Made by a program: the position numbers and the translations under genes
Origin: Paludibacteraceae bacterium
GTDB taxonomy: Bacteria; Bacteroidota; Bacteroidia; Bacteroidales; Paludibacteraceae
NCBI GenBank assembly: GCA_017483945.1
Contig: JAFUUE010000059.1
Location: 1-39,750 of the forward strand
Direction of reading: 5' to 3'
DNA length: 39,750 bases
In this document: piece by piece, positions 1,400-16,990 of the stretch
Position numbering within the stretch: the first letter of the stretch is position 1
Layout: the number at the start of each line of letters is the position of its first letter
The notes under the pieces: model-generated
Told to the model about the DNA's origin: nothing
What the model saw: the letters and a program-made list of their open reading frames with translations, nothing else
The model's database searches: none

Positions 1400-2503
1400 T
1401 TATTGCCCGAGCATGAAGTGGCGGGAGGCGCGATAGTTCGGCGAGATGGTTGAAGAAGAAGGCATAGAGAGGTTGCTGCCACCTTTCCAACTGAAGACGG
1501 GTGTACCTTGCGGGGTGATATAGCGGTATTCGGCATCCTCGCCGATGACGAGCAGCAATCCGTTGTGGCAGAGACTGACCGGATGCCAGCCTTCCGAGAG
1601 GTAGCAGACAATCTGCCCCTTGGTGTCGATGAGTTGATATTGGTCGTTAATCATCACCCAGGCATAGCCTTCGCTGAAGGGTTGTGCAAGGTCGTAGTTT
1701 GAGGGAATCTGCTCCTTGCCGTCGCGGTTGATGTAGCCATACTTGCTGCCGCTCAGGCAGTAGGGTGCGAGGCCGTTGTTGAGGAACTGCCCTACGGCGC
1801 GGAACAGTGGCGAGGTGAGTTGGGTGCCGTTGGTGCTCATCAGTCCGTACTTGTTCGACTCGCTGTAGAGGACACAGCCGTTGCCGATGCTTGTGAGTTG
1901 GTCATAGAGGGGCATGATGACCATCTTGCCGGAGGTGTTGATGGCGCCCATCTTGCCACCCTGCATGATGCAGGCGATGCCGTCTTCGAAGTCACCTGCC
2001 CACTCATAGACCGGTTGGATAACTTCGGTACCGCTCTTGTCGATATAGCCGAAGGTGCGGTCGGATTTGGAACGGCGGAAGGAGGCCAGACCTTCTTTGG
2101 ACATCTGTCCGAGGTGGGCATAGACGGCGGGGATAGCGTATGTCAGGCCATTGTTAATCATACCATAGTTGCCACTGAGGCTGACCACGGCATACCCGTA
2201 GTAGAAGTCATCCACACTGTCGAAGGTGACCTGCTGGAGGTCGCCCTTGGTGTTGATGTAGTAGTTCTTGCCGTTCAGATAGACTTTGGCATAGCCGCAG
2301 GAGAATGTGGCCGCCGCGTCATACTGGGGCTGGATGACCCATTCGCCGGCGGCGTTGATGTAGCCGTACTTCTGGTTAGCCGCCTGATAGGCAGGCCAGA
2401 GGCTTGTGGTGTCGGTGGTGGGGGTGACATCCTGTGAACAGCTGCCCAGACCGAGGGCCAGCACGATGCCGCAGAGCAGCGGCAGGAAAGAATGGTGTTT
2501 CAT
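1400..2503 (-). CDS. WG-repeat lipoprotein
   Basis: This 367-residue protein has an SPII signal (MKHHSFLPLL..., lipobox LGSC with C22), so it is predicted to be lipidated. The rest is about seven WG (beta) repeats with the pattern YGYIN..G..VI.P.YD.A..F..G.A.V, for example YGYINAAGEWVIQPQYD near residue 46 and FGYIDKSGTEVIQPVYE near 150. WG repeats (KWG/WG_beta_rep family) are common in secreted Bacteroidota proteins, and their ligand is generally unknown. The gene lies downstream of the candidate 6S-like RNA and 48 bp upstream of the BspA gene. I see no separate consensus promoter in the 80 bp before its start, so it may depend on read-through past the terminator at 2585-2614. I infer no precise function. 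Confidence 0.88.
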   Translation of the reverse strand: MKHHSFLPLLCGIVLALGLGSCSQDVTPTTDTTSLWPAYQAANQKYGYINAAGEWVIQPQYDAAATFSCGYAKVYLNGKNYYINTKGDLQQVTFDSVDDFYYGYAVVSLSGNYGMINNGLTYAIPAVYAHLGQMSKEGLASFRRSKSDRTFGYIDKSGTEVIQPVYEWAGDFEDGIACIMQGGKMGAINTSGKMVIMPLYDQLTSIGNGCVLYSESNKYGLMSTNGTQLTSPLFRAVGQFLNNGLAPYCLSGSKYGYINRDGKEQIPSNYDLAQPFSEGYAWVMINDQYQLIDTKGQIVCYLSEGWHPVSLCHNGLLLVIGEDAEYRYITPQGTPVFSWKGGSNLSMPSSSTISPNYRASRHFMLGQ

Positions 2504-2584
2504 TGTGTTGGTTGTTTTAGGTGTGAATATATAATAAGTAGTTTAATGGTCATCTTGTCGGCGAATCCACACCCATACACAAAC

Positions 2585-2614
2585 AAAAAGTGGACCCGAC
2601 GTCGTCGTTCCACT
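2585..2614 (-). terminator. Rho-independent terminator of the 6S-like RNA
   Basis: Read on the minus strand, AGTGGA (2614-2609) pairs with TCCACT (2594-2589), with an inner CGAC/GTCG stem, followed by TTTTT (2589-2585). Its 5' arm overlaps the closing stem of the long hairpin, so the two structures would compete. Confidence 0.75.
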
Positions 2615-2900
2615 CTTTGAGGCTCTCGCATTGCCCTTGTTGTATAGAACAAACAACGCAAAGCCCACAACGAATATACACATATTACTATACACCTAAT
2701 GTGCCTTCTACCCTTTTACAGACGGGTTGGCACAAGCATATAGACAATAGAAGGTCTATATTCATGTGGCATTTATCGTTGCAATGTCTGATACAACAAC
2801 TTGAAACTTGCGAGATTCCAAAGAGTCAGAACAGAGCGTTAATAAACGCCTTATATTATGTCCTCCTGTTTAGCGTCAGTGAGTGACGAGGTTGGTATTT
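2585..2900 (-). ncRNA. Long-hairpin non-coding RNA, 6S-like / Bacteroidales-1-like candidate
   Basis: A consensus promoter (2905-2937) and a terminator (2585-2614) bracket about 315 nt with no credible coding frame. Within it, 2832-2607 (226 nt) folds into one long irregular hairpin of nested stems. In window coordinates these are 2829-2832 with 2607-2610, 2819-2826 with 2612-2619, 2810-2815 with 2624-2629, 2791-2799 with 2637-2645, 2777-2781 with 2654-2658, 2757-2763 with 2672-2678, 2736-2743 with 2688-2695, 2729-2734 with 2700-2705, and 2724-2727 with 2710-2713. Internal loops separate the stems. A quasi-continuous hairpin of ~200 nt with an interior bubble is the hallmark of 6S RNA, which mimics an open promoter and binds RNA polymerase. 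The Bacteroidales-1 motif was described as promoter-to-terminator and 6S-like. Family assignment is inference; the fold and boundaries are read directly. Confidence 0.68.
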
Positions 2901-2904
2901 TGAA

Positions 2905-2937
2905 TGCAAAGGTACAACTTTATTTTAGATTGTGCAA
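2905..2937 (-). promoter_or_regulatory. Bacteroidota promoter of the 6S-like RNA
   Basis: On the minus strand, TTG (2937-2935) is followed after exactly 20 nt by TACCTTTG (2914-2907). This matches the -33/-7 consensus of the phylum and places the transcript start near 2900. Confidence 0.85.
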
Positions 2938-3063
2938 GAGGGAAAGTGTTTTTTTATAAGATGTACTGTTTGTACTGTCCATCAACGAATGTAATTTACC
3001 ACCACCCCCTCCCTCTCACTACACCTATGAGACGGCCTTGACCCACAAACGTAAATTATTTGC

Positions 3064-3211
3064 CTTGCACTTTTTGCACTTTCTGCACTTTCAACCATCT
3101 TCAACCATCTTAAACCATCTTAAACAACCTTAAACTATTTTGAACCATTTTGAACCATTTTGAACCACCTTCTACCACCTTAAAAGTGCAAATAGTGCAA
3201 AAAGTGCAAAG
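3064..3211. repeat. 10-bp tandem array flanked by a near-perfect inverted repeat
   Basis: Nine degenerate 10-bp units (type TCAACCATCT, drifting to TGAACCATTT and TCTACCACCT) fill 3091-3181. They are flanked by a 28-bp inverted repeat: the left arm 3064-3091 contains three GCACTTT-type units, and the right arm 3183-3211 contains three AGTGCAA-type units. Each arm is itself roughly 10-bp periodic. As RNA or single-stranded DNA this would form a long stem with a ~90-nt repetitive loop. Confidence 0.9.
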
Positions 3212-3251
3212 CGTTTTTCTTTCAATTGTGCCAAATCGCCTCGGCGTTTCG

Positions 3252-3291
3252 TTAGTGGTTCTTAGAGATTCTTAGTTGTCTTTAGTCGTTC
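3252..3291. repeat. 10-bp tandem array, TTAGNNNTTC type
   Basis: Four consecutive 10-bp units: TTAGTGGTTC, TTAGAGATTC, TTAGTTGTCT, TTAGTCGTTC. The period matches the neighbouring array but the sequence differs. Confidence 0.8.
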
Positions 3292-3446
3292 ACTGAGGCC
3301 CGCCAGTGTCCTGACTAAATCCCACGGGAAAATACGGGCGCTCCCTGTACCTCTCTTCCATAAAAAATGCTTTTCTAAATGGAAACTATATAGTATGAAA
3401 TACAGAAGTGCAATCTTTCGTGGGAGTATAGCGATGCGATGGCAGT

Positions 3447-4853
3447 CTAACGGTTTATCTCATAGATGGTGGCCTCGCCTCCGACGACCTTAATGCGGTT
3501 GTAGGGCGTGGTGGGGAAGACGAGGTTGGTCATTGCCCAAGCACCGTCGCCGTCGAAGGCCTCGATGGAGCAGCGGTCAAGGAAGAGATATACGGTGTAC
3601 GAAGGACGATGCACGAAGAGGGATGTGGTGGTGACACCGGGGAAGTCGGCTGAGAAAGAGTCGTCTCCGGCGGCTGTGCGGTCCATTGAGAACGTCTGGC
3701 GATGAACATCGAGTGTCATGGTGACTTTCTCGCCGAGGTTATTGGAGAGTGTGACGACTCCGGTCTCGTTCCCCGAGAAAGTCAGGCAGATGATACAAGC
3801 CTCGGTAGGACGGCTGACGGTTTTGCCTCGGATAGCCCATGTCTCGGGCGAAGGTTGTACGCATATACGGTAGTCGCCGGCGTCGTCGATATAGAGGGAG
3901 AGGTCACGTGCGATGGTGTTCTGGGAGCGGAAGGAGCCTGTGGGCACTTGTTGCGCATACTGCCAGTTGGACATCCATCCGAGCGACACGATGCGGTTGT
4001 CCGGGGCGTTATGGAAGGTGAAGGTCGAATAGTTATCGCGTCCGTAGTCGAGCCACTTGGTGTTGGTTGTCGGAGCATTCCGGACATCGTCACATTTGAA
4101 CTCCCGGCCGTCCCAGTCGCCGATGAAATACTGCGTGGCTGAACCGCCGAAGGGTCCGCCGGGATTGATGCTGACCAGGAGCACCCACCGCTCTCCCATA
4201 TGGATGAGTTCGGGACATTCCCATACACCTCCGTGGGCACCATATCCCTCGCCGAAGGAGGATAGGTAGGTCCAGTCCTTGAGGTCGGGCGAGGCATAGA
4301 AACGTATCTCCTGTTGGCAGGCGAGTGTCATGAGCCAGTGGTCGCCGTCGCGCGTCACCTTGGGGTCTCGGAAGTCGGCTATGTCGCCCATGAGAACCGG
4401 GTTACCCTCATATTTAGTGAAGGTCATCCCTCCATCGAGCGAGTAGGCAAGAGACTGGTTCTGACCGATATACTCGGACTGCGTATAGACCGCAACGACG
4501 GCGTTCGGTCCGAATCCGGCGGTGTTGTCGCGGTCGATGACCACGGAGCCGGAGAAGATAGTGCCGAGTGAGTCGGGCGCGAGAACGATGCCTCGGTGGT
4601 CCCAATGGATGAGATCTTTGGATGTCGCGTGTCCCCAATGCATAGGCCCCCAGACAGGTGCTTCGGGGTTATGCTGGTAATAGAGATGCCAGAGACCGGT
4701 CTGCTCGTCAAAGAACATACCGTTCGGGTCGTTCATCCAGTTCTGTGTCGGGGTGTGATGATATAGGGAGCGATAGGGTTCCGTTGCAGAGGGAGTGCAG
4801 GAGGCGAGGAGTGCCAGAGCACCAAGCAGGAGGCAGAGAGGGAAATGTTTCAT
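3447..4853 (-). CDS. GH32 fructan hydrolase lipoprotein (levanase/inulinase/sucrase type)
   Basis: This 468-residue enzyme is predicted to hydrolyse beta-fructosidic bonds in levan, inulin or sucrose. I chose the ATG at 4853 because it gives a clean SPII signal (MKHFPLCLLLGALALLASC, C19); an upstream in-frame ATG would add 22 residues that spoil it. The GH32 signatures are all present: WMNDPNG with nucleophile D42, RDP at 162-164 (transition-state stabiliser) and WECP with acid/base E212. The five-bladed propeller is followed by a C-terminal beta-sandwich (about 330-468). It is the last gene of the locus, 66 bp after the previous one. The hydrolysis mode (exo or endo, levan or inulin) cannot be told from these motifs. 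Being a lipoprotein, it sits in the periplasmic or outer-surface membrane leaflet rather than free in the periplasm. Confidence 0.92.
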   Translation of the reverse strand: MKHFPLCLLLGALALLASCTPSATEPYRSLYHHTPTQNWMNDPNGMFFDEQTGLWHLYYQHNPEAPVWGPMHWGHATSKDLIHWDHRGIVLAPDSLGTIFSGSVVIDRDNTAGFGPNAVVAVYTQSEYIGQNQSLAYSLDGGMTFTKYEGNPVLMGDIADFRDPKVTRDGDHWLMTLACQQEIRFYASPDLKDWTYLSSFGEGYGAHGGVWECPELIHMGERWVLLVSINPGGPFGGSATQYFIGDWDGREFKCDDVRNAPTTNTKWLDYGRDNYSTFTFHNAPDNRIVSLGWMSNWQYAQQVPTGSFRSQNTIARDLSLYIDDAGDYRICVQPSPETWAIRGKTVSRPTEACIICLTFSGNETGVVTLSNNLGEKVTMTLDVHRQTFSMDRTAAGDDSFSADFPGVTTTSLFVHRPSYTVYLFLDRCSIEAFDGDGAWAMTNLVFPTTPYNRIKVVGGEATIYEINR

Positions 4854-16454: not shown

Positions 16455-16658
16455 TATTCCTCCTCCGCAATCCGTTTTTTTCTCCGCCTTCCCCCGGTCG
16501 CCTCCACCTCTGCACCTGTCGCATTTGCCTACCGTTCTCGCGTGATTGTCGCGTGATTGACGCGTGATTAACGCGTGATTCAGGTATCGTTCCCCGTACG
16601 ACTCATCGTCTTTTGAGACCCCCTTGGATAGATTTTTAGCACATTCCTGCCTTAAAAC
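16455..16658. other. Divergent intergenic region between regulator and gtrA promoters
   Basis: About 200 bp separate two consensus promoters facing away from each other. I see no gene. The only conspicuous structure is the four-unit 11-bp repeat at 16539-16582, placed roughly midway. Confidence 0.6.
16539..16582. repeat. Four perfect-register 11-bp repeats, CGCGTGATTNN
   Basis: Four consecutive 11-bp units share CGCGTGATT and end GT, GA, AA, CA. They lie about 85 bp upstream of the regulator's -33 box and 77 bp upstream of the plus-strand -33 box. The spacing would place each unit on nearly the same DNA face. Confidence 0.92.
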
Positions 16659-16689
16659 TTGCGTGTCTCGCAAAAAAATCGTACCTTTG
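16659..16689 (+). promoter_or_regulatory. Promoter of the hairpin RNA / gtrA operon
   Basis: TTG (16659-16661), 20 nt, TACCTTTG (16682-16689), followed by CA. Transcription should start near 16696, leaving a leader of about 295 nt before gtrA. Confidence 0.88.
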
Positions 16690-16695
16690 CATCGC

Positions 16696-16987
16696 AGTCC
16701 TGCACTTCGGCATCTGCCCGGATACGCGGAGCGGGGATTGCAGACATATTTGATAAGGCGTTTACGTACGCTTGTTTTTGACTGATTGAAACCTGAGAAA
16801 CTTCAATAAGTAATGTTCGAAAGCAAGTAGTGGTAGATGCCCGTGGTGTGATTATACACGCGCGCGTACTATGTAAGGTACGTGCACACTTATGTATATC
16901 ACAGCGTGGGTTTCTGCTTTACTTATTCGACATTACGGGTTTTCTCAGGACCTCAATCAGCGAATAAGCAAGAGAAGAAATCCGCGT
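16696..16987 (+). ncRNA. Long-hairpin RNA or structured 5' leader upstream of gtrA
   Basis: Between the promoter and the gtrA start the RNA folds into one long irregular hairpin spanning 16771-16972 (202 nt). Nested stems are 16782-16789 with 16953-16960, 16792-16800 with 16941-16949, 16805-16813 with 16919-16927, 16848-16858 with 16893-16902 (one bulge), and 16862-16869 with 16878-16885 around an 8-nt loop. An outer pairing of 16724-16730 with 16981-16987 is also possible. The 3' arm offers an alternative pairing for the middle part (GTAATG with CATTAC at 16930-16935), so two conformations are feasible. Size and fold resemble 6S RNA. No U-rich terminator separates it from gtrA, so it may be a leader rather than a free RNA. 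Confidence 0.55.
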
Positions 16988-16990
16988 TTT

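Follow-up and report, generated by a model that had tools for sequence, protein, structure and literature searches.

A multi-copy structured RNA of Bacteroidales and its probable role as an attenuator leader of a WG-repeat gene

The analysed window (39,750 nt of a Paludibacteraceae bacterium, assembly GCA_017483945.1, contig JAFUUE010000059.1) carries, upstream of a WG-repeat gene, a member of a structured RNA family that was not found in Rfam 15. Three helices of this RNA, namely the closing stem, a loop-loop helix and an inner stem, keep their pairing across copies while their sequences change fast, also when tested against nearest relatives. The RNA probably acts in cis as an attenuator leader for the WG-repeat gene and belongs to a Bacteroidales-wide family of such leaders. 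A preliminary description of the same DNA had proposed that a structured RNA, provided with a promoter of its own and an overlapping terminator, is placed to control a surface-type gene, and this part of its interpretation stands; the identification with 6S RNA or Bacteroidales-1 does not.

Table 1. Positions of the features of the RNA locus and of the second copy in the window.
Feature	Position	Strand	Details
Bacteroidales-type promoter	2937-2907	minus	TTG 2937-2935, 20-nt spacer, TACCTTTG 2914-2907
Small leader hairpin CGTCACTCACTGACG, then CTAAACAGGAG	2874-2888	minus	
Conserved 5' start GACATAATATAAGGCGTTTATTAACGCT with hairpin H1 (2850-2835)	2835-2862	minus	alignments A1, A3
Closing stem P1, 5' strand, including 5 variable pairs	2819-2832	minus	base 2819 common to Ha
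Hairpin Ha	2803-2819	minus	loop CTCGCA 2814-2809
Inner helix S3	5' strand 2786-2799, 3' strand 2650-2637	minus	
S4, 3' strand	2647-2668	minus	partner GCAACG 2782-2777; can instead pair with 2611-2601 (alternative helix)
Hairpin Hb	2620-2636	minus	loop TGCGAG 2630-2625, complementary to Ha loop
Closing stem P1, 3' strand CAAAGAGTGGAAC	2607-2619	minus	
Intrinsic terminator, GTGGAACGACGACGTCGGGTCCAC then TTTTTGTTTGTG	2613-2578	minus	5' arm GTGGA common to P1; U-rich tail
Lipoprotein-like WG-repeat gene, 367 aa	2503-1400	minus	PF14903, 1.6e-52; proposed regulatory target
Second copy, overall	16659-16990	plus	promoter 16659-16689, RNA from 16743
Second copy, hairpins	Ha 16788-16804, Hb 16936-16952	plus	
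Second copy, terminator-like end	16960-16990	plus	weak hairpin, -2.0 kcal/mol

The promoter (TTG-N20-TACCTTTG) and the U-tailed terminator, for which the preliminary description gave no strand, are both present and lie on the minus strand. The folded RNA spans about 2866-2607 on this strand. About 80 nt separate the terminator from the ATG of the WG-repeat gene on the same strand, in agreement with the upstream position first proposed. The terminator at 2613-2578 was not listed by a generic terminator scan. A model of the 5' portion of the element (R1, described below) scored 88.5 bits at the conserved 5' start (E 7.2e-14), this copy being one of the 26 from which the model was built. A CGTC..GACG motif of the leader-hairpin type scored in 22 of 126 copies. 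Elsewhere in the window, positions 3062-3212 hold a 33-nt inverted repeat (88% complementary, with GTGCAAAAAGTGCAA-like arms) enclosing seven 20-nt AACCATCTT-like units, mostly at 10-nt spacing; the only Rfam matches there were sub-threshold ones to microRNAs.

The minimum-energy fold of the 226 nt at 2834-2609 (minus strand) is the single long nested hairpin reported earlier, with a predicted energy of -86.6 kcal/mol, and the folding check bore out its stability (z -8.3, 0 of 200 shuffles as stable). The longer 321-nt segment at 2905-2585 (minus strand) gave z -7.7, and the plus strand of 2585-2937 was less stable (z -4.7). The comparative data give a branched alternative, in which the hairpins at 2819-2803 (Ha) and 2636-2620 (Hb) carry complementary loops. 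Since the continuous hairpin and the branched fold share the loop-loop pairs, the RNA may adopt either of them.

Covariation among relatives, which the preliminary description had named as a check, was found: pairings are conserved through changes on both sides. Across 13 close copies, RNAalifold combined with pairing by hand gave 52 nested pairs, with 96.3% of cells formed, and the pairs of P1 were among those kept through changes on both sides. In total, 65 cells had changed on both sides, far above slid controls and compared with 20.3 for shuffles, none of 500 of which reached this count. Less extreme measures of covariation, counting pairs or pair types, were reached by 24 and 25 of the 500 shuffles, respectively. 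The best-supported stems were also the most variable.

Pairing was further assessed in 136 non-redundant copies of 151 with an own-partner test, in which a 5' strand was matched to its own 3' strand or to the 3' strands of the 10 nearest relatives. The variable part of P1 (p = 2.3e-24), the loop-loop helix (p = 3.4e-22) and S3 (p = 6.9e-23) all preferred their own partners, as did the alternative helix, in which the S4 3' strand pairs with bases immediately past P1 (p = 2e-7); three control pairings were null. No significant covariation was detected against nearest relatives in the lower part of P1, the portion common to the terminator (p = 0.36), and S4 was nearly invariant (p = 0.08 against nearest relatives). 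A candidate pairing between the two ends of the element, P0, was conspicuous but was rejected at p = 0.074 against nearest relatives.

In all 26 aligned copies, the Ha and Hb loops can form a run of at least six pairs (G-U allowed) from several different sequences, and all four stem pairs of Hb are formed, one of them changing on both sides (C-G, U-A, G-C). For Ha, 90.8% of cells were paired and covariation was slight. When all 26 copies were folded jointly with RNAalifold, the consensus was weak, in our opinion because the variable stems do not align. Highly conserved blocks lie around H1, Ha, Hb and S4.

The overlap of the terminator 5' arm with the closing stem, noted in the preliminary description, holds: GTGGAAC is common to the P1 3' strand (2619-2607) and the terminator. 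As the P1 3' strand and the terminator 5' arm are thus the same bases, P1 and the terminator exclude each other. For this copy, the terminator hairpin (2613-2578) was predicted at -9.7 kcal/mol. A T run occupies the terminator position in 146 of 151 copies, with at least 6 T in the 9 bases from the run start in 99% of those 146. The hairpin was predicted below -8 kcal/mol in 61% of the 146; with 10th and 90th percentiles of -12.1 and -0.5 kcal/mol, some copies have a weak one. Forcing the terminator fold cost a median of 4.0 kcal/mol relative to the best fold (146 of 151 copies); a forced fold is never better by construction, so this value shows that the two states are close and not which of them wins. 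The sequence and predicted structure therefore combine a conserved fold with a terminator exclusive to it, as in attenuators and ON riboswitches, the shared lower part of P1 being non-covarying.

In ON-type transcription-attenuating riboswitches, the P1 3' strand is likewise the terminator 5' arm. The RNA described here resembles them in this strand sharing and in a complex fold with loop-loop pairing. It differs in that its stems are long and fast-changing, and in that the genes it precedes share a surface location rather than a pathway.

A blastn search of the stretch against 150 genomes (E ≤ 0.01) matched 97 of them: the source genome, every one of the 90 congeneric genomes and 6 further ones. 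Among the weaker matches, several extended over only a short piece. Two models were then used, both from the same 26 copies: R1 for the 5' 95 nt and R2 for the 3' half. R1 found six copies in the source genome, two of them within the window, and 379 matches in 61 of 61 sampled genomes of the genus (1-26 each). In the order-wide sample, 29 of 294 Bacteroidales genomes, the source included, matched at E ≤ 1e-4; this is a lower bound because only 14 candidates per genome were scored. These 29 genomes represent 20 genera and 14 family labels. Under the same stricter filters as the order search, 0 of 295 genomes besides the source matched at E ≤ 0.001 in a phylum-wide sample.

The two halves of the element occur together. 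Of the 126 genus loci, 125 gave an R2 match on the strand of the R1 match; the exception, L128, runs off its contig. With the 13 model-building copies left out, the agreement was 112 of 113 loci. Among loci from the order search, R2 matched 27 of 28 and gave none in L211; one of these loci, L194, belongs to the same genus as the source. Element length ranged from 218 to 348 nt. The 120 genus loci analysed were the strongest of 148 places, so the sample leans towards good copies.

A 26-base pattern from the 3' half occurred in at least 120 stretches of species genomes. The 80 of these that were listed include Paludibacteraceae, Prevotella, Segatella copri, Paraprevotella, Barnesiella, Parabacteroides and Muribaculaceae, and their titles name Bacteroidales, Bacteroidia or Bacteroidetes except for one MAG named Clostridium and 'bacterium F082'. 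Cultured carriers among them are Paraprevotella xylaniphila YIT 11841, Barnesiella sp. An55 and Segatella copri iAQ1173, the last with the 3' half alone in the stretch covered. No phage or plasmid match was obtained by blastn of a 376-base stretch. One copy (L335) was seen on an IMG/VR viral contig (IMGVR_UViG_3300021319_000137), followed by an EF-Tu-type GTPase gene; this viral-collection contig may be host DNA. The listings and main-text passages found in the open-licence literature contain no description of the family. A prior listing is possible, for example among the thousands of candidate RNAs that PMC8040213 reports.

In the second copy in the window, the U tail abuts the probable start codon (ATG, 16991) of a GtrA-family gene, with a glycosyltransferase gene next in line. 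Since this ATG adjoins the U tail, there is no room for another promoter. A start codon at the U tail was also seen in L037. Upstream of the second copy, at 16540-16585, lies a short run of GCGTGATT-like repeats.

The orientation of neighbouring genes was analysed with a crude ORF caller, taking the longest ORF of at least 60 aa that starts within 500 nt. Such an ORF was present for 123 of the 125 copies with a located 3' end, and in 117 of the 123 it was co-oriented with the element, at a median of 68 nt from the R2 end. A second crude caller gave 111 of 115 co-oriented. Three of the six remaining loci (L036, L147, L158) have a co-oriented gene missed by the longest-ORF rule, leaving L033, L175 and L184 as exceptions. 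The copies thus lie where a cis-regulatory leader would lie, co-oriented with and close to a start codon (117/123, median 68 nt).

In 80 of 126 copies, the 130 nt upstream contain a promoter of the form TTG-N16-22-TAnnTTTG. The other 46 lack a full promoter in that interval, and for 26 of them a co-oriented ORF ends no more than about 135 nt before the copy. Promoterless copies (L120, L144, L164, L167, L172, L177 and others) were seen to trail small accessory genes closely. By eye, these genes are RhuM-, BRO-, PIN- and DUF2442-like, and small hairpins with TTAAAC-GGAG-like linkers stand between them and the copy.

Pfam was run on 106 of the 117 downstream proteins, the 11 omitted being mostly repeats of others or short. 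Surface-type families were found, with BspA-type LRR_5 in 21, InlB-like repeats in 10, DUF4988 in 6, collagen repeats in 5 and Por sorting tails in 4; the downstream genes are not only of the surface type and also include restriction enzymes and a YafQ toxin. In a crude signal-peptide test, 72 of the 117 downstream ORFs looked secreted. Among ATG ORFs of at least 110 aa, a signal-peptide-like start was present in 64 of 89 on the downstream side versus 1 of 47 on the upstream side; in mixed genus loci the figure was 40 of 145 ORFs, some of them downstream genes themselves. In five loci (L085, L103, L138, L147, L185) the element precedes short genes with EELQSRREFFKKAAKA-like starts. Some of these short genes have Cys-rich tails, L138 also has a radical-SAM-like ORF farther on (by eye), and the loci are possibly peptide-modification systems.

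By tblastx, 85 locus pairs were alike upstream but not downstream of the element and 18 were alike on both sides. The WG-repeat gene was rejected as a constant partner, as the element was found within 1500 nt in 0 of 19 other loci with WG homologues. Together, these counts indicate that the pairing of element and gene is labile. They would also suit a mobile or recombination element, an attC- or MITE-like hairpin acting as folded DNA and moving accessory genes; the copies differ in place, and many neighbours look accessory-like by eye (RhuM-, BRO-, PIN-like). We nevertheless hold this explanation to be quite improbable, given that the element points to the next gene in 117 of 123 loci, that 80 of 126 copies have an upstream promoter and that 146 of 151 have a T run behind the hairpin. 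The base pairs also argue against it: G-U exceeded A-C on the modelled strand by 29 to 5 with G-U-majority pairs excluded and by 83 to 5 with them included. Such an excess on one strand is expected for RNA, and an RNA fold is therefore favoured over a DNA fold.

6S RNA binds RNA polymerase and serves in pRNA synthesis. The families RF01693 (Bacteroidales-1), RF00013 (6S) and RF01685 (6S-Flavo) all combine a promoter, a long paired RNA and a terminator, and the RNA of the window is like them in these respects; RF01693 is, moreover, also from Bacteroidales. It differs from all three in that no covariance-model match was obtained at the locus and in that its family is multi-copy and stands before genes. 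No Rfam 15 match at gathering score was found anywhere in the window, and neither a 6S-type family (RF01685 included) nor Bacteroidales-1 appeared in a permissive scan of 2400-3500 that reached to E = 10. The source genome has its own Bacteroidales-1 match on another contig (C55, at 1501-1695 of L001), at 56.1 bits just below the cut-off of 60. RF00013 had no match in the source genome, with the control matched in 5 of 14. The genome search with RF01685 gave no match; its controls were silent too, hence this result is without weight. In the passages available from PMC2864571, Bacteroidales-1 is listed for the order Bacteroidales without a tie to 6S.

A stand-alone trans-acting RNA, such as 6S or Bacteroidales-1, could account for the own promoter, the terminator and the long hairpin. 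This explanation is highly improbable: Rfam matches nothing at the locus, the Bacteroidales-1 match of the genome lies elsewhere, and the RNA is multi-copy, stands nearly always before a co-oriented ORF and in some cases has the start codon at its U tail. The earlier idea of one global RNA likewise gives way, as six copies in the genome and placement before co-oriented genes fit a cis leader better.

Another comparison is offered by FopS, described in the available part of PMC11697453 as multicopy trans-acting sRNAs of Bacteroides, 65-70 nt long, with a single-stranded 5' end and a terminator hairpin. As far as that part goes, the RNA family of the window shares with FopS the multiple copies, the promoter, the terminator and the occurrence in Bacteroidales, but its members are highly folded. 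Membership in FopS was rejected on length (218-348 vs 65-70 nt).

Rfam analysis of 20 related loci showed no known family at the element itself. Its other matches in these loci were SAM-II in L011 and DUF805b (RF02914) in L005 and L010, where the DUF805b RNA lies between the terminator and the start codon (1799-1833 and 1834-1868, respectively; 2 of 20 loci). DUF805b is a separate 35-nt cis motif outside the fold of the window RNA and was unlisted at the window copy. The sequence GCCGAAAAGCC, part of a similar-looking post-terminator motif, was seen in 7 of 31 loci, in some of them at another position.

In families other than that of the source, at least 7 of the 80 listed named loci (picked by eye) have a NusG-type gene next to the element. 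All seven of these NusG-like genes exceeded the Pfam NusG cut-off, and four exceeded the UpxY cut-off. According to the consulted part of PMC7819879, UpxY prevents premature termination in leaders upstream of upxY, and the corresponding part of PMC12691694 describes LoaP as requiring a leader hairpin and acting at the leader terminator. The copies before UpxY-type genes, in genomes named Prevotellaceae, Paraprevotella and Bacteroidaceae, resemble the UpxY capsule-operon leaders of Bacteroides as terminator-bearing 5' leaders upstream of upxY. Most copies seen of the window RNA family precede other genes. UpxY exceeded the cut-off in only 3 of 61 genus genomes and had no match at E ≤ 1e-5 in the source genome. 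A role of UpxY as the general partner of the family is therefore not supported in this genus.

Under the attenuator model, the transcript would start at the promoter at 2937-2907 and fold into a closed structure comprising P1, two hairpins linked through their loops (or a single uninterrupted helix), S3 and S4. We infer an ON-type switch, keeping the direction of the preliminary description: with P1 paired, the terminator would be blocked and polymerase would read into the gene. Opening of P1, possibly through the alternative helix between 2668-2647 and 2611-2601, would let the terminator form and turn the gene off. One cell signal, whether a ligand, a protein or an antitermination factor, might in this way tune a set of surface genes.

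The same position and orientation data (117/123) would arise from a passive 5' leader, whose fold protects the mRNA or fixes a level of read-through and senses nothing. The variable stems, in which pairing is kept more than sequence, are consistent with such a role, and the state in use cannot be read from the energy comparison. A passive leader appears rather unlikely to us, however, because it leaves unexplained the terminator-like end that shares a strand with P1, the covarying alternative helix and the highly conserved blocks described above.

Gut Bacteroidales choose their surface proteins and capsules by DNA inversion and by sigma factors. Occurring 1-26 times per genome in 61 genus genomes, under 14 family labels and not found in Rfam 15, the RNA described here would be a further layer of control. 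UpxY proteins, in the part of PMC7819879 available, are another known layer of capsule choice in these bacteria. We suggest, with less confidence than for the attenuator leader itself, that the family may be a new class of large switching leaders confined, as sampled, to Bacteroidales, in which a common signal at the Ha/Hb junction and S4 sets the antitermination of surface genes across the genome. If so, its targets would be BspA-type and other secreted proteins in the source genus and UpxY-type capsule regulators in Prevotellaceae and Paraprevotella. The family would then be an orphan switch and would give these bacteria a master control of the cell surface at the level of RNA.
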